Positions 7,433 to 63,852 of a DNA stretch of 64,000 nucleotides are shown piece after piece. Each line of letters begins with the position of its first letter. Position 1 is the first letter of the stretch. The notes beneath the pieces are model-generated. The model did not search any database. It worked only from the letters and a program-made list of their open reading frames with translations, and was not told where the DNA came from. The position numbers and the translations under genes are program-made. The stretch is from positions 659,090 through 723,089 of the forward strand of contig NZ_KI911782.1 in NCBI RefSeq assembly GCF_000515395.1, read 5' to 3'. The DNA comes from Jiangella gansuensis DSM 44835 (GTDB lineage Bacteria; Actinomycetota; Actinomycetes; Jiangellales; Jiangellaceae).

Positions 7433-8326
7433 TCACGCCGCGTCGAGGCGGTGCCGGTCGACCGCGACCACGGCGCCGTCGTCATCGTGGTGCAGAACGG
7501 CGAACTCGGAGGGTTCCAGGGTGTCGCCGGGCTCGGCTCCGGCGGCCTCGAACAGCACGGGCAACAGCGGGCGATGCGAGCACACCAGCGCCGGCCCGTC
7601 GGCCAGCAGCGTGCGGATGAGATCGCCGGTCGGCTGTGCCGCGGATCCGGTGCGCAGGCTCTCCTCGGCCAGCGACGGCTCGAGCTCGAGCGTGACGCGG
7701 TGCTGCCGCGCGTAGGGCCGCACCGTGTCGACGCACCGCACGGCGTCGCTGGAGAGCACGCGGGACGGCGCCAGCGCGGCGAGCACCGGCACCAGGGCCG
7801 CGGCCTGGCGCTGGCCCGAGGCCGACAGCGGCCGCTCGATGTCCGGGCCGGACCAGTCGGGGCGGCGGACGGCCTGGGCATGCCGCAACAGCACCAACGG
7901 TGTGGTGCGCACCGGGGCTGCCAGGGCGGCACGTGCCAGGTCGGCGTCACGTTCGTACGTCAGACGCTGCAGAGCGTCCTCGACCGGCAGGAAGACGACC
8001 TCGTCGACCTCGTCGTCCGGTTCGCGTGGACCGGCGGTGGCGTCGGCCTCGGCCAGCCAGTAGTGCACGAGCTTGGGTCGGCCCGCCACGTCGTAGCCCT
8101 GTGTGGGGAGCCGGCGCCCCAGCCGGACTTGATGGCCGGTCTCCTCCCACACCTCGCGCGCCGCGGCGGCGAGTGGATGCTCGCCACGGTCGACCTTGCC
8201 CTTGGGCAGTGACCAGTCGTCGTACTTGGGCCGGTGGACGAGGCAGATCTCCAGGTCACCCGGTCGCTTGCCCGTCCGCCACATCACCGCCCCCGCGGCG
8301 ACGACGGTGCCGCGGCGCGGGCTCAC
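7433..8326 (-). CDS. Nudix hydrolase fused to histidine phosphatase (MutT1-like)
   Basis: A 297-residue two-domain protein. The N-terminal half has a perfect Nudix box, GKVDRGE then seven residues then REVWEETGH. The C-terminal half starts LVLLRHAQAVRR, the catalytic RHG-type motif (here RHA) of the histidine phosphatase family. The combination matches mycobacterial MutT1, which removes oxidised nucleotides such as 8-oxo-dGTP and degrades diadenosine polyphosphates (family knowledge). I start it at GTG 8326, which overlaps the stop of the CHAD gene by 4 nt (GTGA). The frame extends 15 codons upstream, but that would overlap the CHAD gene further. It is the third gene of the ppk operon. Confidence 0.9.
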   Translation of the reverse strand: MSPRRGTVVAAGAVMWRTGKRPGDLEICLVHRPKYDDWSLPKGKVDRGEHPLAAAAREVWEETGHQVRLGRRLPTQGYDVAGRPKLVHYWLAEADATAGPREPDDEVDEVVFLPVEDALQRLTYERDADLARAALAAPVRTTPLVLLRHAQAVRRPDWSGPDIERPLSASGQRQAAALVPVLAALAPSRVLSSDAVRCVDTVRPYARQHRVTLELEPSLAEESLRTGSAAQPTGDLIRTLLADGPALVCSHRPLLPVLFEAAGAEPGDTLEPSEFAVLHHDDDGAVVAVDRHRLDAA

Positions 8327-48174: not shown

Positions 48175-49014
48175 GTGCCAGCTCGACACGCCGCAGGTCG
48201 ACGCGGCGGCCGCATCTCGAGGCACAAGCGGCGTCCCGCACCGCGCCTGTTGCGCTTCGTGCTGCCCGTCGCCGGCGCCGGCGCGGCCGCCGGTGCCGCC
48301 GTGGGGGTCACGACACTTCCCGCGCTCCCCGCCGACTCCACGGCCGCGATCGCGCCGGTGTCGCCCGTCCCGTTCGAGGTGGAGGGACTACGCGAGGAGG
48401 CCGCGGGCGACGCCGCTCGCTCCGACGACCGCGGCACCCCCTCCCCGCAGGCGGGCTCCGGCCCAGCCGCCACGCCGGCGCCCACCCCGACGCCGTCGGT
48501 CCCGGCCGCGCCGGCTCCGGCTCCCACGCCGGCGCCGACCCCGGCACCGACCCCCACGCCCACCGGGTTCCCGCCCGTCGAGGGTTGCGCGGCCACCGTC
48601 CCCGGCGACGACGTCGCCAACGGCGAGCTGGGCGACGAACACCTGTGCCCCATCGGAGAGGGCCATGAACTGCAGCCGGACGCGGCAGCGGCCTTCCTGG
48701 CGCTCGACGCCCACTACCGCGCCGAGACCGGCGAGAGCCTGGTGGCCTGCCTCACCGACTCCTACCGCAGCTACGAGGCGCAGGTGGACGTCGCCAACCG
48801 CAAGCCCGGGCTGGCCGCGGCGCCCGGCACCAGCAAGCACGGCTGGGGCCTCGCCGTCGACGTCGGCTGCGGCGCGAACTCCTTCGACGGCCAGCTGTAC
48901 GGCTGGCTCGACGCCACGGCCGACGACTTCGGATGGCACAATCCCGGCTGGGCCCGGCCCGGCGGCTCCAACCCCGAGCCCTGGCACTGGGAATACTCTT
49001 CGAGCGGCGAGTAG
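48175..49014 (+). CDS. M15-family D-Ala-D-Ala carboxypeptidase (VanY-like), exported
   Basis: A 279-residue protein. It has a basic N-terminus and a membrane segment (about residues 22-50), a Pro/Ala/Thr-rich wall-spanning region (PTPAPTPAPTPTPT), then a VanY-type peptidase domain (about 135-275). Zinc ligands: SKHGWGLAVD (HxxxxxxD) and EPWHWEY. The last five residues (SSSGE) after the conserved WHWEY are immediately followed by the phage integrase gene (ATG 18 nt after the stop), so the 3' end was probably rebuilt at integration. It trims peptidoglycan stems. Confidence 0.9.
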   Translation: MPARHAAGRRGGRISRHKRRPAPRLLRFVLPVAGAGAAAGAAVGVTTLPALPADSTAAIAPVSPVPFEVEGLREEAAGDAARSDDRGTPSPQAGSGPAATPAPTPTPSVPAAPAPAPTPAPTPAPTPTPTGFPPVEGCAATVPGDDVANGELGDEHLCPIGEGHELQPDAAAAFLALDAHYRAETGESLVACLTDSYRSYEAQVDVANRKPGLAAAPGTSKHGWGLAVDVGCGANSFDGQLYGWLDATADDFGWHNPGWARPGGSNPEPWHWEYSSSGE

Positions 49015-49031: not shown

Positions 49032-50456
49032 ATGACTCCAAAGGTCAAGCACCAAAGCGGAACTATTCGAGCCTACGCCAGGATCTCGAAGCGCACCGAC
49101 GAGTCCCAGTCGGTTGAACAGCAGCGATACAAGATCGAGCGCTGGCGGGACTACCACCACGAGGGCGAGGCCATCGAGTGGTACGTGGACGAAGGCGTGT
49201 CCGCCTCCAAGAAGGTGCGACGGCCCGAGCGTGAGCGCCTGACCGCAGAGCTGGGGCAGGGCGACGTGCTCGTGGCGCTCAAGGTGGACCGCTTGGCGCG
49301 GTCCGTCGGTGACCTCCTGGACATTGTGAAGCGCGCCGATGAGGTTGGCGCTTCCGTGGTGTTCGTAGATCAGCAGATCGACACGCGAGGCCCATACGGC
49401 AAGTTCACTCTGACTCTGCTGGCGGCACTGGCTGAACTCGAAGCCGGCATCATCCGGGAGCGGGTCAAGGGTGCCATCGAGACCTTCGACCGCGACGGCC
49501 GACACGGCTACGGGCGGCTGCCCTTCGGCTTCCGCAGTGTGCGCGACGACGTGAAGGGGTGGCTCGTGGTGCGGCCACACCCGGACGAAGGGCCACGGCT
49601 TCGGGATGCAGTGCTGCGGATCATTGACGGCGCGTCAGTCAACGGTGAAGCGCTCAGCCTCGGTATCCCACAGGTGAACCTGTGGAAGCTGGTGCGCAAC
49701 CCCAGGCTCTACGGACGCGGGCCGTCAGGTCGCGTCGACAAGGACGCAGCACTCATCACCATGAGCCAATGGCAGACGCTACAGCGGCGCCTGGAGCAAT
49801 CCGCACCACAGCGACGACAGGGCAGCAAGGCACCGGGCTACGGCCCGGTGTTCTTCTGCCACCACTGCGACAAGCGGCTCTACCTCAACCAGTCCATGCG
49901 TCCCCACCGTGGCGGCACGTACCTGTGCGCCGGCAACCACAAGCTCAGGGCCAGCATCCTCCGAGATGTGGCAGACCAGTTCGTCGAAGACTGGTTCCTC
50001 GGCTTCTACGGGGCAGCGCCGGTCATCAAGACCGAGCGCGACGAGCAAGAGCCAGACGACACCATCGAGCAGCTAGCCGAGATCGACGTTGAGATCGATG
50101 AGTGCTTCGCCGCCATGCGCAACAGGCCGGCTGACAGGCCGGCCCTCATGGAGCAGGTGGAGACCCTGGAGCGCAGGAAGACCGAGCTACAGCAGGGCAA
50201 GCCCAAGGGTGAGATGCGCCTCGTGCACCACGGGACCATGGCCAAGCACTGGGCGGAGTCCGACGACGACTACCGAGTGCATCTCATGCGCCAGGTGATG
50301 CGGGTCGTGGTGCACCCAGCATCAGCACCCCAGCGGCTCGTGGTCGAAGACAAGGAGTGGCCGCAGGCCACCAACGAGGAGCTGGAGCGCAAGGGCTTCG
50401 GTCTAGAGCTGTCCGTAGATGAGCAGGGCAGGACGATTGCCACTCAGACCCGCTGA
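49032..50456 (+). CDS. Large serine integrase
   Basis: A 474-residue site-specific recombinase. The resolvase domain (about 8-150) has the nucleophile Ser in AYARISKRTDESQSVEQQ and the conserved KVDRLARS and GPYGKFTLTLLAALAELE segments. The recombinase domain (about 165-260) contains YGRLPFGFR and LVRNPRLYGRG. A zinc ribbon (FFCHHCDKRL ... YLCAGN) and a coiled coil (about 355-410, EIDVEIDECFAAM) follow. ATG 49032 is used; an upstream open extension overlaps the M15 gene. Length is at the short end for serine integrases. No directionality factor was recognised. Confidence 0.95.
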   Translation: MTPKVKHQSGTIRAYARISKRTDESQSVEQQRYKIERWRDYHHEGEAIEWYVDEGVSASKKVRRPERERLTAELGQGDVLVALKVDRLARSVGDLLDIVKRADEVGASVVFVDQQIDTRGPYGKFTLTLLAALAELEAGIIRERVKGAIETFDRDGRHGYGRLPFGFRSVRDDVKGWLVVRPHPDEGPRLRDAVLRIIDGASVNGEALSLGIPQVNLWKLVRNPRLYGRGPSGRVDKDAALITMSQWQTLQRRLEQSAPQRRQGSKAPGYGPVFFCHHCDKRLYLNQSMRPHRGGTYLCAGNHKLRASILRDVADQFVEDWFLGFYGAAPVIKTERDEQEPDDTIEQLAEIDVEIDECFAAMRNRPADRPALMEQVETLERRKTELQQGKPKGEMRLVHHGTMAKHWAESDDDYRVHLMRQVMRVVVHPASAPQRLVVEDKEWPQATNEELERKGFGLELSVDEQGRTIATQTR

Positions 50457-51916
50457 AGCCAAGGCTCTTGAAGTGCTCAAGACGGACTCAATGGGGTGGG
50501 CGCTTTGCGCCATCCGCGCCTGAATCCCTACCGACTCAGTGGGTATTGCCCTGCATCCATGGTCATGAGCCAAGCATCTGTACGCACCTGACGTGCTTCT
50601 GAGGCCAAGCTGTACCGCTTCTGTCTGGAAGCGGTAGCCATGCGCCATGCACATATGGGTGCCTGGTGCCCAATAGCCAGAGCGGTACCATTTCCTGGCT
50701 GCTGTGCCCCTGGCCTGGGTGTTCGCCCCCTGGCAGGGCGCCGGCTGGTTGGCCGGCGCTGGTGGGAGCCTGCGGCTTTCGGCCTCGCGAGCAGGGGTCT
50801 TGACCCCCCGTTGCTTAATCCGGCGCCGGCCTTCTCATACTGAGCGCAGATCCAAATGCGCGTTAAATTTTGGGTTCTGGACCCCCGCATCCAGCCCCCC
50901 AACTACCCCCGAACGGGCGTCAAACAGCCCTGCAATATGGGGTCCGAACTGGGGGGTAGTTTTCGCTAGGCCACCGTTGGGTTCAGGGTGGCTTTAGGGG
51001 TTGGGTTCATTGGACTCTGGCGAGGCGCCTGTGGGCGCCTCCATGGCGCCCTGGACTACAGCGCATCGTTGCCCCACGACGCGCCTACGGCGATGCTGGT
51101 GACGCACTCATGCGCTACTGCGCTGAAGCGTTCCGGCGACGGGAAGAGATGTCAGCGACAAGGCAAAGCTACCGAGGCCCTAGGTCTAGGCCCTTGGCTG
51201 AAGCTATGGGCCGCCCTTCGGGGGCGGGCCGCTGAGGTCACCTGTTCTCATCGGGTCGCCGGCTCCGCGAAGCGGTCTCGGCGTGGCGATGGCTCCAGGA
51301 CTCCTAGTGCCTAGCCCGTACCGTTCTTCCGTCGCTGCAAGCCGACGGCCGCGCCAGCGGACGGCGGCGTACTGAGAACTTAGAGCGCCGCGTCAGCGGA
51401 GCATGGCGTCGGGGCGTCGGCGAAGCCGGTTCCCCGTGACCATGGGCGCCGTCCGGCGCGCTATGGCTCTAGAGCCAGGTCCTGGGTCATGGCCAAAGCG
51501 CGCCTACGGGCGCGGGGCGCCCTTCGGCGCTGGCATAGAGCCTTGGGGGACCATGCGGCGGCAGGGCGCGGACTCCGGCGAAAGCCGGCCTCGCGGTGCG
51601 CCGATGCATGGCTCTAGAGCCATAGAGCCTAGGTGTCCCCGGGGCTTGTCCCCGGCCCTATATATAGGGGACACGGGGACAACGGGGACACGGGGACAAG
51701 CCTCGATCGGGCCGCCAAGATCTTTACAAATCTCTGCCGCCGCTGTGGCTCCGTGGGGCCGCCCGTCGCTGCACTTCGCCACCCATGACGTTGTTTCAAC
51801 GACAAGCTCTATGGGCGCGACCTGGGCCTTTACCAGCAACGATGTCGGTTGCGGGCGCAGTTAGCACTCCTGGAGAATGGTGTCAAGAGGCAGGCAAGAG
51901 GGAGGGACTCACGCTC
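50457..51916 (+). other. Non-coding, highly structured stretch of the element (1.46 kb)
   Basis: Frames here (up to 153 codons) have no ribosome site, read through repeats and show no protein-like composition. The DNA is full of short palindromes and UUCG- or GNRA-type hairpins: CCCTTCGGGGGCGGG near 51215, GAGGCGCC/GGCGCCTC at 51022-51041, AACTACCCCC with GGGGGTAGTT near 50900-50960, and GGCTCTAGAGCC twice (51465-51476, 51610-51621). It holds an iteron-like cluster at 51632-51700. A replication origin, structured RNA or att region is likely. Confidence 0.6.
51632..51700. repeat. Iteron-like GGGGACA cluster around a TATATA palindrome
   Basis: GTGTCCCC (51633-51640) and TTGTCCCC (51646-51653) lie left of the perfect 14-bp palindrome CCCTATATATAGGG (51656-51669). 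On its right are four direct units GGGGACAC, GGGGACAA, GGGGACAC, GGGGACAA (51667-51699). The left units are inverted relative to the right ones. The only AT run of the area is at the centre. The layout fits a replication origin or an operator/promoter before the RepA-like gene. Confidence 0.65.
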
Positions 51917-52039
51917 ATGACCACCGCGATTCTGGACTACCCGCCCGAGGCGGTCCACGCCGTGAAGGAAGCCGAGGCGCTGGTGCGCTCGATGTACCGC
52001 CGCATCCTTCGGGAGGAGACCGCGCGTGCTGAACGGTGA
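51917..52039 (+). CDS. Small protein upstream of the RepA-like gene (40 aa)
   Basis: A 40-residue mostly helical, charged protein (YPPEAVHAVKEAEALVRSMY ... EETARAER). ATG 51917 is preceded by GGGAGGGA. It overlaps the RepA-like start by 14 nt, so the two are probably coupled. It has no recognisable family; it could be a regulator or partner of the ATPase. Confidence 0.55.
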   Translation: MTTAILDYPPEAVHAVKEAEALVRSMYRRILREETARAER

Positions 52040-53114
52040 GACGCTCATCGTGCCAGACCTGGCGGCGCCGATTAGGGCTTCCAGCGTGGAGCCATTCCCC
52101 ACCCTGTGGGAGGCCGCGACGATGGCCATGTCCAGCCCGGAGCCACTGGTTCCCGGCTTCGTATCCGGTGCCTTGACACAGTTCGTCGGGCCGCCGAAGG
52201 CGGCGAAGAGCATCGGCGCCTGTGAGCTGATCCGCGCCGCCCTGACGGACACGGCGTTCTTCGACGTGCCGCTTAACTGGCGCATCGAGCGGGTGCTTTT
52301 GCTGACCACGGACCCCGGCGCCGAACGCGAGTACGCAGACCGCCTGGTGTCCGGTGGGGTGCCGGTGGAGTCGCTCGACAACCTTCTGACGGCCCGTGCG
52401 CCACGAGGCGCCACGCGTCAGGAACTGGACGAGATCAAGGCGAAGCTGGAGATGGTCGGCGTCGGGCCGGGAACCCTGGTGATCCTGGACCACTACGGCG
52501 GTCTAGTCGAGGAGCAAGTGTCGGACCCGTCCAAGACGGGGCCGGCCACGACGTTCCTGATCGAGTTGACCGATCTGGGTTGTGTGGTCGTGTTCCTGCA
52601 TCACAGCTCCGAGAAGATCGGAGACCACGGCCAGACCAAGTACGGCATGGGCTCGACCTACATCAAGGCTGCTGTTCGCCAGTGGACCACCTTCAGGACC
52701 AAGAAGGAGACGTTCATCGTCAGGGGCAGCTCGCAGAGCGGCGAGCAGGCCGAGGCGGTCCGACGGTGGGTGACCCCCGGCATACCCAACACGTCTCTTG
52801 ACCACGCCGCCGTTGACGGGACTGGCGCTCAGGGCGGGTCTCGACCCCGCCTCTCCGGCGCCCTGGCCGAGGCCTGCTTCTGGGTAGTCGAGAACCACGC
52901 CGAGAAGAGCAACGCTGAGATTGGTCAACTGGTCGCCGCCGAGCATCCCGGCATCTCCAAGGGCGTCGATAAGGCCCGATCCATAAGCAAGGGCCTGTCC
53001 GAGAAGAAGTTGCTCGGGAAGTACTTGCATCGCGTTGACGGTCGCCTCACCTGGCGACCGGAGTATGCCGAGGAAGCCAAGCGCGGCGGCTACGTCCAGC
53101 CCTCCGCCGCCTGA
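52026..53114 (+). CDS. RepA-like AAA ATPase
   Basis: A 362-residue protein of the RepA/RecA-like (hexameric replicative helicase) ATPase group found in actinophages and plasmids. Walker A is atypical, GPPKAAKSIG instead of GxxxxGKS. Walker B is LVILDHYGGL; a downstream VVFLHHSSE matches motif 3. The C-terminal 90 residues look like a winged-helix domain (ALAEACFWVVENHAEKSNAE ... KGVDKARSISKGLSEKKLLG). GTG 52026 is the start. The iteron-like cluster lies 330 bp upstream, which suggests replication or copy-number control. Confidence 0.8.
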   Translation: MLNGETLIVPDLAAPIRASSVEPFPTLWEAATMAMSSPEPLVPGFVSGALTQFVGPPKAAKSIGACELIRAALTDTAFFDVPLNWRIERVLLLTTDPGAEREYADRLVSGGVPVESLDNLLTARAPRGATRQELDEIKAKLEMVGVGPGTLVILDHYGGLVEEQVSDPSKTGPATTFLIELTDLGCVVVFLHHSSEKIGDHGQTKYGMGSTYIKAAVRQWTTFRTKKETFIVRGSSQSGEQAEAVRRWVTPGIPNTSLDHAAVDGTGAQGGSRPRLSGALAEACFWVVENHAEKSNAEIGQLVAAEHPGISKGVDKARSISKGLSEKKLLGKYLHRVDGRLTWRPEYAEEAKRGGYVQPSAA

Positions 53115-53205
53115 CCATCAAGCACGGACCAACACCTGAGTGAGCAGAGCGTGTGACCCGCGCCGGTCCCACGGACACGTAACCCGAGTGAACGGATAAC
53201 AGAAA

Positions 53206-53775
53206 ATGGTCTTCCACTCCTACCTGTTCGACAGTGCGAAGTTCACCACCTGGTTCACGGCATTCGTGGACCCGTCCAACCACGTTGAGTGGGTCGAGCG
53301 GTGGGCCGCTCGTGGCCACGAGATCGAGCACTTCCCGACTTGGGCTGACCGGGTGACCAAGGGCATCCATGACGCCGCCTACGGCCAGCGTTACACGGTG
53401 CGCATGGATGCGGCACAGATCATGTGGAACTGGGTTGTCTTTAACCCGAGCGTCGTGCACGCCTGGGGTTGCCCAGACGAAGGCTGCGGTGCGGGGGACA
53501 AGCCGTACTCCTCGGGCAAGATGATCAACCCGCTTCGGCGGGTGGTGCGGGACGAGATCCGCAAAGTCAACGGTGACAAGAAAATCATGGTGGACGGGAA
53601 GCAGGTTCGCCTGGCGAACATGAACCTGGAAGTGCCGCTCAGCTACCTGGCTGTGAATGGCGAGACCATAGCGGAGACCGCCGATGCAGTCGCCTCGTAT
53701 CAGAACGACTCTCTGAAGACCATTGTCCGCAGTGACCGGCATCGAGAAGAACGGCTCAACGCCGGAAGACTGTAA
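53206..53775 (+). CDS. Phage-type protein of unknown function (189 aa)
   Basis: A soluble protein with aromatic-rich N-terminus (VFHSYLFDSAKFTTWFTAF), a cysteine pair HAWGCPDEGCGAG, and a basic middle (LRRVVRDEIRKVNGDKK). No family is recognised. The ATG follows AACAGAAA with weak ribosome-site features. It stands 91 nt after the RepA-like gene. Confidence 0.72.
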   Translation: MVFHSYLFDSAKFTTWFTAFVDPSNHVEWVERWAARGHEIEHFPTWADRVTKGIHDAAYGQRYTVRMDAAQIMWNWVVFNPSVVHAWGCPDEGCGAGDKPYSSGKMINPLRRVVRDEIRKVNGDKKIMVDGKQVRLANMNLEVPLSYLAVNGETIAETADAVASYQNDSLKTIVRSDRHREERLNAGRL

Positions 53776-56120: not shown

Positions 56121-59100
56121 ATGGCTACACGCCACAACACCTGGTGGGCCGACCGTGTCGGCGAAGCCGCTGCCGCTACGACCAGCAGCACGAGCCCTCA
56201 GCCGAACTACGGCGTGGCGTGGACCATTGGCACGTCCACGTTGCTGACCCCCACTCAGCGCGAGCAGGCAATCAACGCCATGCAGACGGTGGCCCAGACC
56301 GAGGCCACACGCCAGGCGTACCTGAACAACATGTTCGGCTGGATGATGAACCTTTCCAGCCAGGTGAACGGACCGCGTAAGCGGTCGTTCTTCGAGCGCG
56401 TCAGGGACACTGCCGGGGATCTGGTCGGCGGCGTGGGCGACGTGGTTGGCGGTGCCGTGGATGCGGTGCGGTCTCTCAACGATCAGCAGAACCGCTTTAT
56501 GGGCACTGAGGATGAGTACGAGCAGGCCCGTGAGTGGGCCGGCTCCGGCCTTGGTGCCGGCATGGAGGCGTACGAGCGCTATGTCGGTGAGCCTGTCGAG
56601 CGGGGTCTTTCGGTCCCGCTTCAGCTCGGGAACGTGCTCGATGAGGTGCAGAAGTCCGAAAGCTGGGCTGATTCGTTCGAAGCGTGGCTTCAGGCTGAGA
56701 CCTACGCCGAAGCGTGGCGCCGGACCGAGGATTCGACGTTCGGCCAGTCGGTGGCGGACATGTTCGTCAAGCCCGAGGTCCGCGAGGCTGGCTACGAAGG
56801 CGGCTTCGGTGAGGATGGCTTGCCGATAGATGCCACGTACCGCGAGCTGCGCGAGAGCGACACCGCCTACAACCTCACCAGTGGTACGGCGGACTTCCTT
56901 CAAGAGTGGTTCACGGACCCCCTGACCGTGGCCACGGCCGGTGTCGGCCGTGTGCGTGCGTACGTCAAGGGCGACCTGGACCGACTGCCGCGAGGTAGCG
57001 CCGCCACCATACGGCGCATCGTGGGCGCTCCGGATGAGGCACTGGAGGAGCTGCGTTCCCGGAGGTTCGTCAACCCCGTGGCAGCCAGAGCACTCCAGCT
57101 TAGAGAGCAGGTGGGCCAGCTTCGTGACCGGGTACGCGCCGGGGAGCTGGACCAGACCGGACTGATCGAACAGGTGCAGGCGTTTCGGCACGACCCCACA
57201 GCCGCAGCCCTGTTCCACGACCTGTCGACTGCCCGGAAGTGGGATGAGGCGAACCTGGCCTACGTCGATGAGTTCGACGACGACGTGTTCTACCACGGCG
57301 TTGGTGCACTGCTCGGATCTCCGACTGCCATTGACAAGCTACGGGCCGCCTTCGGCGACCGTGGCCGACAGATCGCCCAGCAGATCGACAACCTCAGCGA
57401 CACTCGCATCCCTCAGCTCGATGACGAGGTTCGCCTTGCTGAAGCGGCCTGGGAGGAAGCGGCTACCAACCCGAACCTGTCGGGCTTCCAGCGCTACGAG
57501 CGCATGTTCACGGCGGAAAAGGATCTCGCGACCCTTCGCCGTGAAGGCGGCATGCTCAATGAGCAACTGGATGAGTACGACTCGCATCGCCGATTCTTGG
57601 CGGCGGTTGATGACCGTGTCGCCCAGGCGTCCACCAGCATGGTGCCCCGTGCCTCTCAGGAAGCTGGAGACATCGTCGGCGGCGTCGCCGCCCACACATA
57701 CCGCAGTGGCCCGAACGGCAAGGCTCACACGTACGTCAAGGTGAAGTCGGGGTTCCTCCGGAACCGGCCGGGCGTCATGGACCTGTCGCGCAACATCTGG
57801 CAGCCGGCTGACAACTACCTAGGCGAGGCGTTCGCCATCGGTGGGCAGAAGGCCGTCGACAACCTGGCAGCCGCCACTGACGGTGGCCTCGACATCGACC
57901 TGTGGCGTCGGGACATGCTGAACAAGGCTGCCTCCGCCTCCACTGATGTGGAGCGGCGCACCATCGCCGGTCAGGTCGAGATGGCCGGCATTGAGCTGGT
58001 GGCTCGCAAGCACGGGCTCACCCCTGGTGATGCCCGCCAGATCGCCAGCATGTACAACCGCCGCCGTGGTGAGTTGTTCGCTGACATTGAGCGTCAGCAC
58101 ACGGAGAACCGCGCCTACAGCGCAGCAGCCAGTGACGACCCGATCAGGTACTCGTACAACAACAACAACACCGAAGAGACCATTGAGCTTCCGCTGACGC
58201 TCACGCAGCTCAAGAACTACCACGTGCCGATGGACCTTAAGGCCCTCGACAACATCCTGACCCAGCACGGCGGCGGCTTCCGTGGCCAGCTTGCCCGTGG
58301 TGGCGAGATGGCCGACTGGGCGATGAACATCTTCAATTCCTACTGGAAGCCCTTGGTTCTGTTCCGTGGCGGCTACGTGGTGCGCAACGTGTCGGACGAG
58401 ATGATCCGTGGCGTTGCTGCCGCCAACACCTTGATGGTGATTCCCGACGCGGTGAAGGCCGGAACTATCGGCCTGGTCAACCTGCCGATCCGTGCGGCCA
58501 ACCGGGTATCTCGGACGTGGAACGCGATGGAGCGGCGGCGTTACCGCCGCCGACAGGCGCAGGACCCTCTGTTGGTGCGTGAGGGCACCGAGGATGCCTA
58601 CGAGATCAACACGTCTCGCCTGCCCTCGGTGGAGAAGAACCTTGCCGGGGTCGAGCGCTGGACCCAGCGGCGCCTAGGCGCCGAGGTTGGCGGCAAGAGG
58701 CTGCCCAAGGCACCAGCCATCATCACCAAGCTCAACGCAGCCATGGAGTCCGGGGAGACGTTCGCCTACGACCTGGCTTCCAACCGAGTGCGCAACGTTG
58801 ACACGGTCACTCCGCTCGACGTGGGCGAAGCCGTAGTGCAGGACGTCACTGGCGTGGCCCGCTTCGCCGATGATCACGCAGACCTGCTGTCGCACGCCGA
58901 TGGCGTGCTCATGGTGACCCCCGTCAAGGATGGGTTCAGGGTCAACGTGGGCCGTCGTGGCGCTCGCTATGCCCGCTTGTTCGGCACGGTGGATCAGCTC
59001 GGTTCCCGGTCCGGCACGGTCAAGGGTCGTAGCGGCGCGAAGATCGAGCACGCGGGAGCGTTCGAACAGGGTGTTGGTGACGTCTTCCGGACGGTCGCCA

Positions 59101-61367
59101 GCTCCGCACCGTTCCACAAGACGATGGTCTCCAGCTATGAGTCTGAGCTGAAGCGTCTACGCACTGAAGCTCGTGGCTTCTCCTCCACCATCGGGGACCA
59201 GGAGCACGCCGCCAACTGGCTGCGGATCATCAACGATCAGCTCCGCCCGGACCCTGCGGTCCGTGCTCGCCTTGAGGGTAAAGACCTGGCCACCTGGGTG
59301 AAGGGTGAAGGCCGGGACCACGCCGCCCGCATCAAGTGGCGCAGTGCGAAGCCTGACATCTGGCAACAGGAGCTTGATGCCAGTATCGACACCTTGCTGC
59401 CCACCGAAGCCCTCCGGGCGAAGGTGGCCACCGGGGAGCCGATCACCGAGGTGGACCTCCAGCACATCATCGATCAGCGGTTCGACGTGGCGCCCAAAGC
59501 CGTGGACTCTACGGCTGTGGACATGGCCGTTGGTGGCCGGCTGTCTCGGTCTGTGGCGTCCGCTCGGGACAAGGTCTACAACTGGATTGCGACCATTCCA
59601 ACGGACTCCCTGGTTCGGCACCCGTTCTTCAACCGCATGTACCGAAACCGGCTGAAGGCTGCTGCTGACCAGCTTGAGGCTGGCCAGACCATCGGCAAGG
59701 AAACGCTCCAGATTATGGAGCGGCAGGCCCGCGAGTACGCGCTACGCCAGACCCGGCGGTACATGTTCGCCGGAGACGAGATGTCCGGGCTGACCCACAC
59801 CCTGCGGCACCTGACGGTGTTCCAGGGCGCCTGGGCAGAATCGCTCCAGCGGTACGCACGCATCATCAGCGAGCGTCCCGAGCAGTTCGTGAGGCTCTAC
59901 ACCAACGGCTGGCAACAGCTCGATGACAACGGCTTCGTTGAGTTCGTCGACCAGAACGGCCTCGGCAAGGACGACCCGGACCACGGGGACCTGGACTACA
60001 TCAGGATTCCCGGCGCCGGCAACGTGCTGAAGTTCATGGACAAGCTGGTGCCGGGGGACCAGTCGGCAGCGGCGGAGATCTTCGAGACGTTCAGCATCAA
60101 CAAGAACGGCCTCAACACCGTTCTGCAAGGTGACCCGTGGTGGCTGCCCGGTGCGCACCCGTGGGTACAAGCGCCGGCTACGTTCATGCTGGCGGATCAC
60201 CCGGACTTGGCAGACGAGAACTCCTTCTCGTCGTTCATGTACAAGTACCTGCTCCCCACCGGCCCGGCGTCGCTTCAGAAGACGCTGTTCCCGGCCGCCT
60301 GGATGACGGAGACGTTCCGGTACTTCAAGGGTGCCAACGATCCGGTCTTCAACCGGATGACCCTGACCAGGGTGCACCAGCAGCGCTACAACGATTGGGT
60401 AGCCAACGGTCGCCAAGGCCCAGAACCGGACTTCCAAGAGTCCCTGGACATCGGCAAGGGTGCGCAAGCGGCCTGGATCGCTGCCCGGTTCATGTCGCCG
60501 GCCTCGTTCAACCCCGAGGTCAAGGGCCAGATGTTCATTGACATGGCCAATCAGGTCCAGTCCGAACACGGCTTCGGTGAAGGGGGCTTCAAGGCGTACC
60601 TGGATCTGGCCGGTGACGACCAGGCCATCTGGTGGACGGCCACGACACAGAACAACTCTGGCGTGCCCGCCACATCGGCGGGCTTCCGCCAGTCCGAGCG
60701 GTACAAGGACCTGATCGCCAAGAACCCTGAGCTTGGCCTGGCCCTCGTCGGTCTCGATGCAGAGACGGACGAGTTCAACTACCAGGTGTACCGGCACCAG
60801 ACCGAGACACCGATCTCCGACCTCAGCGACCAGAAGCACCGCGAAGCCCTCGGGCCAGAGGCGGTGGTGACTGCCACCGAGGAACGCCAAGGTTGGGCTG
60901 AGTGGAAGCGTTGGAACGTCAAGATCGACGCTGAGCTTGCCGCTCGTGGCCTGCAATCTGTGGACCAACGCGGCGCCGAGGATCTGAAGCTGATCAAGGC
61001 CGGCATCCGTGGCGAGCTGGCATCTACGTATCCCGGCTGGCGTGACGCCATGTCCCAGTTCGACACCGACCGCACCTACGGCATCGTCCGGTCCATCAGG
61101 TCGATCATCGAAAGTGGCGACGCGCCAGACCGTCCCGACTGGGACGGCTGGGCGGAGTTTGTGGACTGGGAGGCGCGTATCGGCGCCGAGCTTGATGCTC
61201 GTTTCATGGCGGGCGGATCTCGCAGCATCGAGCACAACGACAACGCGGACTTGCTTTTCGCTTACAACACCGGAGTTGGCCAAATCAAGCTGGCTAACCT
61301 GATGTTTGCGGAGGCGATGGACCGAGTCCTACCGGAGCACAACATGACACTTGGATCGGGTATCTAA
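56121..61367 (+). CDS. Giant phage-type protein of unknown function (1748 aa)
   Basis: One uninterrupted 5.2-kb gene. It has a Gly-rich amphipathic segment at about 85-120 (AGDLVGGVGDVVGGAVDAV), long helical stretches, an AsnAsn-rich patch (YSYNNNNTEET), a hydrophobic block at about 745-795 (FRGGYVVRNVSDEMIRGVAA) and a C-terminal third with aromatic motifs (LRHLTVFQGAWAESLQRYAR; DPWWLPGAHPWV; RFMSPASFNP). No nuclease, ATPase, protease, lysozyme or methylase motif was found. Size and position before structural-type genes suggest an internal virion or injected protein, like the very large proteins some actinophages carry (inference, unverified). Confidence 0.85.
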   Translation: MATRHNTWWADRVGEAAAATTSSTSPQPNYGVAWTIGTSTLLTPTQREQAINAMQTVAQTEATRQAYLNNMFGWMMNLSSQVNGPRKRSFFERVRDTAGDLVGGVGDVVGGAVDAVRSLNDQQNRFMGTEDEYEQAREWAGSGLGAGMEAYERYVGEPVERGLSVPLQLGNVLDEVQKSESWADSFEAWLQAETYAEAWRRTEDSTFGQSVADMFVKPEVREAGYEGGFGEDGLPIDATYRELRESDTAYNLTSGTADFLQEWFTDPLTVATAGVGRVRAYVKGDLDRLPRGSAATIRRIVGAPDEALEELRSRRFVNPVAARALQLREQVGQLRDRVRAGELDQTGLIEQVQAFRHDPTAAALFHDLSTARKWDEANLAYVDEFDDDVFYHGVGALLGSPTAIDKLRAAFGDRGRQIAQQIDNLSDTRIPQLDDEVRLAEAAWEEAATNPNLSGFQRYERMFTAEKDLATLRREGGMLNEQLDEYDSHRRFLAAVDDRVAQASTSMVPRASQEAGDIVGGVAAHTYRSGPNGKAHTYVKVKSGFLRNRPGVMDLSRNIWQPADNYLGEAFAIGGQKAVDNLAAATDGGLDIDLWRRDMLNKAASASTDVERRTIAGQVEMAGIELVARKHGLTPGDARQIASMYNRRRGELFADIERQHTENRAYSAAASDDPIRYSYNNNNTEETIELPLTLTQLKNYHVPMDLKALDNILTQHGGGFRGQLARGGEMADWAMNIFNSYWKPLVLFRGGYVVRNVSDEMIRGVAAANTLMVIPDAVKAGTIGLVNLPIRAANRVSRTWNAMERRRYRRRQAQDPLLVREGTEDAYEINTSRLPSVEKNLAGVERWTQRRLGAEVGGKRLPKAPAIITKLNAAMESGETFAYDLASNRVRNVDTVTPLDVGEAVVQDVTGVARFADDHADLLSHADGVLMVTPVKDGFRVNVGRRGARYARLFGTVDQLGSRSGTVKGRSGAKIEHAGAFEQGVGDVFRTVASSAPFHKTMVSSYESELKRLRTEARGFSSTIGDQEHAANWLRIINDQLRPDPAVRARLEGKDLATWVKGEGRDHAARIKWRSAKPDIWQQELDASIDTLLPTEALRAKVATGEPITEVDLQHIIDQRFDVAPKAVDSTAVDMAVGGRLSRSVASARDKVYNWIATIPTDSLVRHPFFNRMYRNRLKAAADQLEAGQTIGKETLQIMERQAREYALRQTRRYMFAGDEMSGLTHTLRHLTVFQGAWAESLQRYARIISERPEQFVRLYTNGWQQLDDNGFVEFVDQNGLGKDDPDHGDLDYIRIPGAGNVLKFMDKLVPGDQSAAAEIFETFSINKNGLNTVLQGDPWWLPGAHPWVQAPATFMLADHPDLADENSFSSFMYKYLLPTGPASLQKTLFPAAWMTETFRYFKGANDPVFNRMTLTRVHQQRYNDWVANGRQGPEPDFQESLDIGKGAQAAWIAARFMSPASFNPEVKGQMFIDMANQVQSEHGFGEGGFKAYLDLAGDDQAIWWTATTQNNSGVPATSAGFRQSERYKDLIAKNPELGLALVGLDAETDEFNYQVYRHQTETPISDLSDQKHREALGPEAVVTATEERQGWAEWKRWNVKIDAELAARGLQSVDQRGAEDLKLIKAGIRGELASTYPGWRDAMSQFDTDRTYGIVRSIRSIIESGDAPDRPDWDGWAEFVDWEARIGAELDARFMAGGSRSIEHNDNADLLFAYNTGVGQIKLANLMFAEAMDRVLPEHNMTLGSGI

Positions 61368-62272
61368 TGGATTTCACCCCTGGCGGCGGCCTCACCTATA
61401 CGGGGGATGCCGACTTAGAGAACTACATCAGCCAGTATGCGGCGACCTTAGGCCCGGCGCCTATCGAAGAGAGTCCTTTCAAGACGGAATTGGCAGAACG
61501 CTGGGCACGCTACTGGGCACCTAAACCGAACATTCCGATGTCGCCTCGGTACAGCTACCGACGTCCAGGGAATCCAGGCTTCGGCGTCCTGGCGGAGTCG
61601 AAGCCTGGCGGCAAGCGCACCGGCAGCTTGAAGGGCCAGCAGGACTTCTACGTGGAGCGCGAGCGAGGCGGCAAGGAAGGCGGTTCGCTCAAGGGTGTCG
61701 ACACCAAGGCCCCTGATCGAACAAGACTGCAAGCCCTCGCGGACCGGTTCTTTGGTCGCCCAGCGACACCAACGGAAGTGTCCGAGTTCTGGGGCATGGG
61801 CCTGCTGGACCTGGATGCGGCAGGCACCATTGGTGCAGACCCCAAGGACCCCTGGCACTGGCTCGAAGCTCGTGCCGCTCAGCAGGAAGCTGACCGCGCC
61901 AAGGCGGAGAAAGGGTCTGGCCCTCGGACCGAGACTCAGGTGCAGCGCACCATCAACCTCACTGATCCAGTCACCGCTGGGACCGTGGTTGATGTGACCC
62001 TGCGGAACGTCCTCGGCCGCCGCGCTACCTACGAAGAGCGCCAGCAGTTCCTGTCGACGTTGCGTGAACAGGAGGAGTCCAGCCCCGGCATCACAACCAC
62101 GTCGTACGAGTACGACGGTGAGCAAGGTACTCCGGTCTCCGTGTCGTCTACGACGACGGGCGGCGCCCCGGACGCCGGCACGGCTGCTCAGGCTTGGGCC
62201 GATGAGGAACACATGGAAGAGCAGCAAGCGGTTCTGGCTGCGTCGTATCTCGACGTCTTGAAGGGCCTGTGA
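61367..62272 (+). CDS. Phage-type protein with two GRxAT modules (301 aa)
   Basis: Start ATG 61367 overlaps the giant gene's TAA by one base. Residues 1-105 are Pro/Gly-rich and likely disordered. Two similar helical segments follow: LADRFFGRPATPTEVSEFWG and LRNVLGRRATYEERQQFLST; both read (L/F)-x-GR-x-AT-x-x-E. A Thr/Ser-rich linker (TTTSYEYDGEQGTPVSVSS) and a C-terminal helix end the protein. Such GRxAT segments occur in actinophage virion or lysozyme-like proteins in my memory; unverified. It is probably packaged with the giant protein. Confidence 0.72.
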   Translation: MDFTPGGGLTYTGDADLENYISQYAATLGPAPIEESPFKTELAERWARYWAPKPNIPMSPRYSYRRPGNPGFGVLAESKPGGKRTGSLKGQQDFYVERERGGKEGGSLKGVDTKAPDRTRLQALADRFFGRPATPTEVSEFWGMGLLDLDAAGTIGADPKDPWHWLEARAAQQEADRAKAEKGSGPRTETQVQRTINLTDPVTAGTVVDVTLRNVLGRRATYEERQQFLSTLREQEESSPGITTTSYEYDGEQGTPVSVSSTTTGGAPDAGTAAQAWADEEHMEEQQAVLAASYLDVLKGL

Positions 62273-62487: not shown

Positions 62488-63852
62488 ATGGCTTTCAGAA
62501 ACGCTGGCGCGACTCCTGTATCGAGCGTCGTCTCTTCTGTCCAGATTACCCTAGGCTCCAATATTCAGCCGGGTGACATCATCACAGTTGGCGCTAGTTG
62601 GCAGGGTAACCACACCTCCAGCACTGGCCTCAACATCTCATCGTCCAATGCTGGAGACTTTGAGGACCTCTCGGGCTGGCAAATCATTGGGTCTGGTGCC
62701 GCTCGCCAAGTCTTCAGACGAGTTGCCATCGCCGGGGACGCCAACTCCACCATCACCATCTCCACCAACGGTGGCACGACTGGCCGGGTCATTGCCTTCT
62801 ACCACGCGGCCAGTGGCCTTGATTCGACTGCGACGCCGGTTGTGGCCGGCTCTGGTGGAAGCTCGGGCACGGTCCTCGACTTCCCGAGTGCCCAGCCAAC
62901 GGAAGGCTGGTCTGGGGGAACCGCTGTCTACCTGGGGATGTACACCGTCACCAGCGGTGGGCAGCCGACGTTCGACGTCGGCTCGTCCGGCACCACAATG
63001 CGCGCTCAGGGAACCACCGTCCATGGTTCGGGTAGCAATTCGGCGGCGCTGGTTGCTGACAAGACGTTCACTGGTGACGCGCAGATTCCCAGCGTCACAA
63101 TGGATTCGGACATCGCAGTACAGAACCGCCTTCAGCTGGTCATCCTCTACCTGGAGAGTGGCGTTCCGAAGCCCATCGCCAACGCCGGCCCGGATCAGAA
63201 CGTTGCCGCAGGCGCCACCGTCAACCTGGATGGCTCGGCTACCGCCAATGGCGGTGCTGGCGCACCGTACACGTGGCAGTGGACCCAGCTCTCCGGGCCG
63301 GCCGTCACGCTGAACGACCCCACGGCGGAGAACCCCAGCTTCACTGCACCCGCCGTGTCCAGCTCGGTGGTTCTCCAGCTCATCGCCACTGATGCGGGCG
63401 CCGTCGCCTCTGACCCCGCCACGGTCACCATCAACGTGCTGGGCGCTGAGGACACGGCGTACCCGAACGCTGACGTGACCGTGGCGAACTGGACGCCGAG
63501 CACAGGCAGCACCATCTGGCCGGTTCTCTCGGACGGCACTGACACCACGTACGCCACGAGTGCAGAGAACCCCAACGGTCAACTGCTTCGAGTCGGGATG
63601 TCTGAACTGACAGACCCGACGTCACCCGACGTCGTCAACCTGACGGTGCGGGCGCGTAAGCGAAGCGCCAGCAGCGGAACGCTGACGGTTCAGCTGATTG
63701 AGGGTGCCAGCACGGTGCGAGCCACGCTGCTCAACGCGCCGCTCCCCGACACCTTCTCCTCGATCCAGCTCAACATCACCCCTGCTGAGTACGACACGGT
63801 GACGGACTGGAATGACGTCGACGTGGTCCTGAGTGTTGAGGCGGCTGCGTGA
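62488..63852 (+). CDS. Probable virion structural protein with PKD/Ig-like domain
   Basis: A 454-residue all-beta protein. An N-terminal domain (about 1-225) resembles phage surface or tail beta-sandwiches (VQITLGSNIQPGDIITVGAS). A PKD/REJ-like domain (about 229-320) reads ANAGPDQNVAAGATVNLDGS, then YTWQWTQLSGPAVTLNDP. The C-terminal 120 residues (TVANWTPSTGSTIWPVL) resemble the discoidin-like domain of actinophage structural proteins. ATG 62488 lies after its own promoter region. Likely a tail, fibre or decoration protein. Confidence 0.78.
   Translation: MAFRNAGATPVSSVVSSVQITLGSNIQPGDIITVGASWQGNHTSSTGLNISSSNAGDFEDLSGWQIIGSGAARQVFRRVAIAGDANSTITISTNGGTTGRVIAFYHAASGLDSTATPVVAGSGGSSGTVLDFPSAQPTEGWSGGTAVYLGMYTVTSGGQPTFDVGSSGTTMRAQGTTVHGSGSNSAALVADKTFTGDAQIPSVTMDSDIAVQNRLQLVILYLESGVPKPIANAGPDQNVAAGATVNLDGSATANGGAGAPYTWQWTQLSGPAVTLNDPTAENPSFTAPAVSSSVVLQLIATDAGAVASDPATVTINVLGAEDTAYPNADVTVANWTPSTGSTIWPVLSDGTDTTYATSAENPNGQLLRVGMSELTDPTSPDVVNLTVRARKRSASSGTLTVQLIEGASTVRATLLNAPLPDTFSSIQLNITPAEYDTVTDWNDVDVVLSVEAAA

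Follow-up and report, generated by a model that had tools for sequence, protein, structure and literature searches.

Lambda-type origins pair the O protein with four palindromic iterons that are located inside the O gene. One of the Jiangella elements described below likewise has four palindromes beside a gene that weakly matches O-like families, whereas the element in our window has no O-like match and its repeat units are singly non-palindromic.

Among the theta plasmids of Streptomyces, the pWTY27 report describes short direct and inverted repeats bound by Rep, for pWTY27 itself and, as cited there, for pFP1 and pFP11 (PMC3583192). Like our locus, these iteron origins combine direct repeats of 7-8 bp with inverted ones in the noncoding part of a replication locus. 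By contrast, the pWTY27 iteron is ~300 bp long, with AT-rich regions and a demonstrated RepA footprint, and the locus described here is 70 bp long, has no long AT-rich stretch and is associated with an AAA_25 ATPase. The Vibrio cholerae satellite PLE encodes a serine recombinase and carries semi-palindromic repeats bound by its RepA (PMC7145576). The large serine recombinase, the element's own initiator (a presumed one in the Jiangella element) and the semi-palindromic repeats in a noncoding region are points of likeness, whereas the PLE initiator is of the RepA_N type and its family, host and helper differ from those of the Jiangella element.

Satellites such as P4, PICI, cf-PICI and Flayer/Mulch are characterized by missing phage parts and the need for a helper (PMC10690885), in which the Jiangella elements resemble them. 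Flayer and Mulch, satellites of Streptomyces, are described there as encoding encapsidation machinery without key replication genes (PMC10690885); unlike them, the Jiangella elements appear to be the reverse, with replication kept and packaging lost. A survey of actinobacterial prophages suggests that a good many elements, above all those <15 kbp, might be satellites (PMC10023795). Literature searches for Jiangella together with prophage found no paper, and no description of these elements was found within our searches on satellites and Beephvirinae. The Beephvirinae podophages FlowerPower, Manuel, Romero and Dennebes share with the Jiangella elements a homologue of a giant protein (gp9, ~25% identity over 40% of the length), a stretch like the lead block described below and a TATA flanked by TGTC/GACR before the terminase gene. 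FlowerPower differs in carrying terminase, portal and capsid, and we saw no GGGGACA cluster in those left-end regions of these phages that we covered.

A GGGGACA repeat cluster in an integrated element

The window (the whole 64-kb stretch of DNA that was analyzed) holds most of an integrated, phage-derived element of Jiangella gansuensis with a 9-bp att core, the right end of which lies outside the window. When the host flanks are joined (185 nt) and aligned to the genome, they match as two segments sharing 9 bp, GGGAATACT; one copy lies at 48989-48997 and the other at genome position 725809-725817, which makes the element 17,731 bp long. Among its genes are some of phage tail/injection type. 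The left host flank was matched in each of 11 other genomes of the genus searched. The features that the argument needs are given below in window coordinates, with G000 denoting the window's own genome, G007 (J. endophytica KE2-3) and G010 two same-genus genomes with like elements, and G004 the J. anatolica GTF31 genome.

48989-48997 (+): attL core GGGAATACT; it lies at the 3' end of a gene named, by eye, as D,D-carboxypeptidase-like
49032-50456 (+): large serine integrase (start codon judged by eye)
50795-50884 (no strand assigned): lead block TTGACCCCCCGNTGCTTAA...ATACTG...CGTTAAA, common to the elements and terminase-bearing relatives
51501-51617 (no strand assigned): block with 80% identity to the G010 element; 16 bp separate its end from the first unit
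51632-51706 (no strand assigned): GGGGACA cluster with an outer 15-bp inverted repeat (arms 51640-51654 and 51691-51705, 93% complementary)
51634-51640 (-): GGGGACA unit 1, inverted
51647-51653 (-): GGGGACA unit 2, inverted
51656-51669 (no strand assigned): perfect palindrome CCCTATATATAGGG, a putative promoter -10-like or melting centre
51667-51698 (+): GGGGACA units 3-6, direct, starting at 51667, 51675, 51684 and 51692
51917-52039 (+): 40-codon ORF from an internal ATG of the listed ORF 51785-52039, overlapping the ATPase start
52026-53114 (+): AAA_25 (RecA/RepA-type) ATPase, 362 aa, presumed replication protein
53206-53775 (+): 189-aa protein with 27% identity, across 162 aligned positions, to a 277-aa protein of the G007 element
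56121-61367 (+): 1748-aa giant protein, phrog_10618, homologue of FlowerPower gp9
61367-62272 (+): 301-aa protein, 57% identical to a 297-aa protein beside the giant in the J. anatolica prophage
62488-63852 (+): PKD-domain protein, its C-terminal 222 positions 59% identical to a 456-aa protein of the J. anatolica prophage
66720-66728 (window-equivalent, outside the window; G000:C1:725809-725817): attR core GGGAATACT

Besides the serine integrase at its left end, the element has a tyrosine recombinase gene near its right end (L018 2986-3603, window-equivalent ~65896-66513).

The cluster sits between the integrase and the ATPase genes. A preliminary description of this DNA had reported two inverted and four direct GGGGACA units round a palindrome, and these are indeed present at 51634-51698: TATATATA forms the centre of the cluster, and the units are packed at both sides of it and point away from it. 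The exact CCCTATATATAGGG has a single copy in the window. GGGGACA itself was found nine times in the window against 13.15 expected from shuffling, so the word is not frequent overall, and six of the nine copies fall within these 65 bp. Six units within 80 bp were seen in none of 500 dinucleotide shuffles of the noncoding stretch 50457-52025 (1,569 bp). A test independent of the word gave the same motif: GGGGACA, with six copies, is the 7-mer of the window that recurs best within 80 bp, and no 7-mer reached more than four when the in-window part of the element was shuffled 60 times. The pattern GGGGACAN{0,2}GGGGACA has three overlapping matches in the 5,585,780-base genome, all within the cluster, and its 24-base triple form is present, among 60 genomes, in the window's own only. 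Viral contigs gave no match to the exact 24-mer of the cluster, and blastn of 51000-53200 and 51497-51705 against phage records gave none either. The cluster is thus a genuine, locally unique repeat cluster, far beyond chance.

The palindrome had also been called the only AT run nearby. By eye, TATATATA is the longest uninterrupted A/T run close by, but it is not the AT-richest place, since 24-mers at 51717 and 51791 reach 58% A+T against 54% at the palindrome. The A+T content over 51700-51760 is 34%; apart from TATATATA there are just the short 24-mers of 58%, and we found no long AT-rich unwinding region by the repeats. The suggestion that the site has the shape of an origin or an autoregulated promoter holds as far as a locally unique cluster placed before a replication-type cassette in a mobile element is concerned. 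The earlier account left out the setting, a 17.7-kb serine-integrase element with defined att sites and phage virion-type genes in which no gene for terminase, portal or capsid was recognized.

The ATPase begins 326 bp beyond the cluster (from 51700 to 52026), in agreement with the ~330 bp given before. Its designation as RepA-like is fair at the level of the fold family only, because it matches Pfam AAA_25 (E 1.4e-9), whereas RSF1010 RepA is no more than a sub-threshold hit (E 0.3). The ATPase matched no replication-protein family of PHROG or NCBIfam, tblastn against phages and plasmids gave no match, and patterns made from it were confirmed nowhere in the genomes and viral contigs. A single-sequence AlphaFold model of it (mean pLDDT 36) was discarded and is not used as evidence. 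The 40-codon ORF before it had no family match, and PADLOC called nothing on seven proteins.

Counterparts in related elements and phages

Of 393 genomes of the class, six have the giant protein (G000, G004, G007, G010, G012 and G109), as have two of 396 genomes of the phylum, the window's own among them. By tblastn its relatives lie in 29 phage records, all of them named Streptomyces phages; in viral contigs a search with the giant protein alone returned nothing, and an alignment led to one contig. We compared the layouts of G000, G004, G007, G010, G012 and the IMG/VR contig L045, leaving out G109 and the second genome of the phylum.

Two layouts emerged. In G004 (with a matching IMG/VR contig, L044), L045 and G012, the lead block is followed by noncoding DNA, terminase and portal, and the giant lies further on after the portal in G004 and G012; in FlowerPower the homologue gp9 has the portal gene on one side and minor tail genes on the other. 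The elements of the window, G010 and G007 instead have a replication-type cassette between the lead block and the giant, and no terminase or portal ORF was seen in that interval. Proteins of G004 that match terminase, portal and major head families were then used as queries. Each matched G004 and G012 and nothing else (terminase 2 of 8 genomes, portal 2 of 5, capsid 2 of 5), so that G000, G007 and G010 gave no match to these three queries, which would miss unrelated types. The G010 element measures 18,672 bp and is bounded by a 51-bp repeat at tRNA-Asn, and that of G007 comes to ~18 kb from gene positions only. The giant gene is open in each of the three elements, and the same layout is kept in the three genomes.

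Two further observations concern the terminase-bearing relatives. The phage contig L045 has an Rfam abiF RNA match after the portal gene (7607-7644, 47.5 bits, E 7.7e-6), and the G012 prophage has a long inverted repeat, seen by eye, immediately ahead of its lead block (GTTGTCATGACCATCTGTCA...TGACAGATGGTCATGACAAC, L040 9306-9372).

A search for the motif in related elements, which had been proposed as a check, found the GGACA core in another arrangement at the equivalent place in the two other same-genus elements. The G010 element contains the counterpart of 51501-51617, followed within 40 bp by TTGGGACAAGGACAGGTTCTCTATAGGCGGTGTCCCATGTCCC, and this shared block makes the clusters of the two elements positionally equivalent. 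Four GGACA sites lie there within 40 bp round TATAGG, upstream of that element's own AAA_25 ATPase, and point towards the centre, opposite to those of the window. Shuffles of the G010 region never reached three GGGACA within 80 bp (0 of 500) and reached four GGACA in 0.2% of cases. In the G007 element there are four GATGGACMCGKGTCCATC palindromes where 0.00 were expected, with start-to-start distances of 122, 115 and 210 bp, and its region holds three GGACA within 80 bp (P 0.018 from shuffles). Of the three terminase-bearing relatives examined, G004 and L045 have no such site, and G012 has a weak TATA/GGAC match.

A replication-type gene follows each of the three clusters. That of G010 is an ATPase matching AAA_25 (E 4.3e-27) and primase/polymerase and helicase families (phrog_906, E 4.8e-19); it shares 29% identity with the window ATPase across 216 aligned positions (window residues 31-235), with no meaningful alignment beyond. 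The 107-aa protein after the G007 palindromes weakly matches replication-initiation O-like (phrog_391, E 1e-3) and DnaD-like loader families. It is the nature of these genes that leads us to read the loci as replication cassettes. Position and GGACA core recur while number, spacing and orientation vary, as expected of a binding site that evolves with its protein, although three elements are few. The window ATPase itself may not be what binds the GGGGACA units, because the motif core is shared despite the low identity of the two ATPases and we saw no ORF of AAA_25 type in the cassette of G007.

A 15-mer, GCAGGTCGAWTCCAG, is common to G010 (L020 9471) and G007 (L038 ~11924, minus strand), ~13 and 26 bp after a GGACA site, and is absent within three mismatches from the in-window part of the window's element. 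The proteins encoded after the replication gene in G010 (L020 10912-11823) and in G007 (L038 10104-10937) are possible element-encoded transcription factors. The former has a sub-threshold match to sigma-70 region 4. The 303-aa G010 protein and the 277-aa G007 protein have no significant similarity, which gives no support to a regulator of the motif shared by the two.

Proposed working of the cluster and its alternatives

We favor, with moderate confidence, the view that the cluster is a cis-acting control locus of the element's replication cassette, that is, a protein-binding iteron or operator and possibly also an origin. The GGGGACA units on both sides of TATATATA would be bound by a protein that the element encodes, either its AAA_25 ATPase or a partner of it, or by one made by a related helper phage. 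The bound cluster would then gate the downstream operon, comprising the 40-codon ORF, the ATPase and the following genes, from its TATA centre. After excision, the cluster probably also marks the start of the element's own replication. Packaging (pac/cos) sites, DnaA boxes, an RNA attenuator and a decayed remnant were all considered as explanations of the cluster and set aside, as detailed below. The preliminary interpretation of the cluster is supported in part.

The strongest competitor dispenses with the origin. The cluster would be a promoter-operator only, with TATATATA as the -10 element of the main rightward promoter of the parent phage and the GGGGACA units as sites of a regulator, either an element repressor or a helper-phage activator. 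We regard this as rather unlikely as the whole explanation. It draws its strength from phages: all four Streptomyces phages examined (FlowerPower, Manuel, Romero and Dennebes) carry a TGTC-N15-GACRGGTATA element whose TATA lies 245-268 bp upstream of the terminase gene; the G012 prophage has GGACGGGTGTTATACCTATGAGGGG followed by GGACACC 309 bp before the terminase start (9879, judged by eye), and in the window TATATATA (at 51659) lies 258 bp before the first ORF (51917). A TATA flanked by GTCC/GGAC ~250-300 bp before the first rightward gene, as in a promoter of the phage family, is thus found in the window. In G010 the TATA precedes by 146 bp a small ORF whose start, 9583, was judged by eye. 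Because the four phages and G012 carry a comparable TATA element 245-309 bp before terminase, the promoter-operator role appears better supported than the origin role. The conserved, promoter-like phage element occurs at ~354-422 in the four records (L042, L062, L063 and L064, in the order named) with constant spacing, and its 35-base form matches 14 stretches of viral contigs.

Several results speak against a promoter-operator alone. No pair of sigma-70-like -35/-10 hexamers at 16-18 bp was found in 50400-52100, and the plus strand of the element, as far as it lies in the window, has no TGTC-N15-GACRGG. Six units, four of them in tandem, would exceed the need of a simple operator. By the TATA/GGAC count the terminase-bearing G004 and L045 are without the site, and the G007 palindromes have no flanked TATA. 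Ten regions were tested post hoc for a TATA flanked by GGAC/GTCC. P was below 0.03 in four (window 0/500, G010 0.008, Manuel 0.014, FlowerPower 0.022) and came to 0.052 for G012 and 0.178 for Romero; Dennebes, G007, G004 and L045 had no such site.

An element acting at the RNA level, in which the repeats fold into a hairpin that attenuates or regulates a leader, is improbable. Folding of 51632-51706 is better on either strand than in any of 200 shuffles (z -4.6 and -4.2) and the longer region 50980-51720 reaches z -5.2 (20 shuffles), but any inverted repeat folds well and no terminator was called there. Rfam gave no match on the window at the gathering score, and permissive searching of 50400-52100 gave eight hits far below thresholds. 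Moreover, the arrangement differs in G010 and the motif is the same, as expected of a protein site. The G010 counterpart of 50980-51720 folds with z -3.9 (20 shuffles); taken by itself, the conserved block of G010 is no more stable than its shuffles. The noncoding region 50980-51720 also contains GGCTCTAGAGCC palindromes and a 20-bp inverted repeat (51458-51477 and 51609-51628).

We consider it very improbable that the cluster is a packaging or DNA-end site of the phage family. The idea is prompted by six ATGTCC words in the terminal repeat of FlowerPower, which is 253 bp long according to the published description (PMC9753666) and is visible as a direct repeat at both ends of the record. In the elements, however, the cluster lies ~450-830 bp beyond the lead block, and the noncoding regions of G004 and L045 hold just 5 and 4 GGAC/GTCC words in all. 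Nor is the cluster at the same place in the terminase-bearing relatives: G004 and L045 have none, and the G012 match is the weak one (P 0.052).

The lead block is a better packaging candidate than the cluster because it is common to the terminase-bearing relatives, and it may be a DNA-end or packaging site of the phage. With up to two mismatches, TTGACCCCCCGNTGCTTAA occurs in 4 of 60 genomes (G000, G004, G007 and G010), and G012 aligns to the block with more changes. The exact lead-block pattern was found in two IMG/VR stretches, L044 and L045, and in FlowerPower a stretch like the first part of the block lies inside the terminal repeat, near its inner edge.

That the units are host DnaA boxes in an element origin is scarcely plausible. 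Three of them read TTGTCCCCG, which agrees in 7 of 9 letters with TTGTCCACA, the Streptomyces box as given in PMC3583192. In each of these three, however, the box's terminal ACA is altered; the remaining three differ from the box at more than two positions, and no box within two mismatches was found in the G007 region. Least credible is a decayed, functionless remnant of a defective prophage: the element has no recognizable terminase, portal or capsid and its genome no match to those of the related prophage, but three elements in three genomes share the layout, defined ends give 17,731 and 18,672 bp, and the giant is open in each.

Place among phage satellites

For the elements as a whole, we tentatively suggest that those of the window, G010 and G007 form a family of ~18-kb Jiangella phage satellites, a possibility that we hold with some reserve. 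Such satellites would have kept the DNA-end site and the injection and tail genes of a temperate podophage. In place of terminase and portal they would have taken up interchangeable replication cassettes, each bearing its own GGACA-type iteron cluster; their DNA would be amplified independently and packaged by a helper. In keeping with satellites, integration is site-specific with defined ends in the window and G010, and three queries revealed no packaging or capsid genes.

The cluster itself is a familiar kind of site, an iteron or operator; the element family is little known and may be the more unusual of the two. On our reading, the cluster is a compact cis-site for replication or control in a little-known family of phage-derived elements of actinobacteria. 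If the satellite interpretation is true, these elements would represent a type of satellite that keeps virion-entry genes and a phage DNA-end site without packaging genes, the reverse of Flayer and Mulch, and would supply Jiangella genetics with a small replicon.
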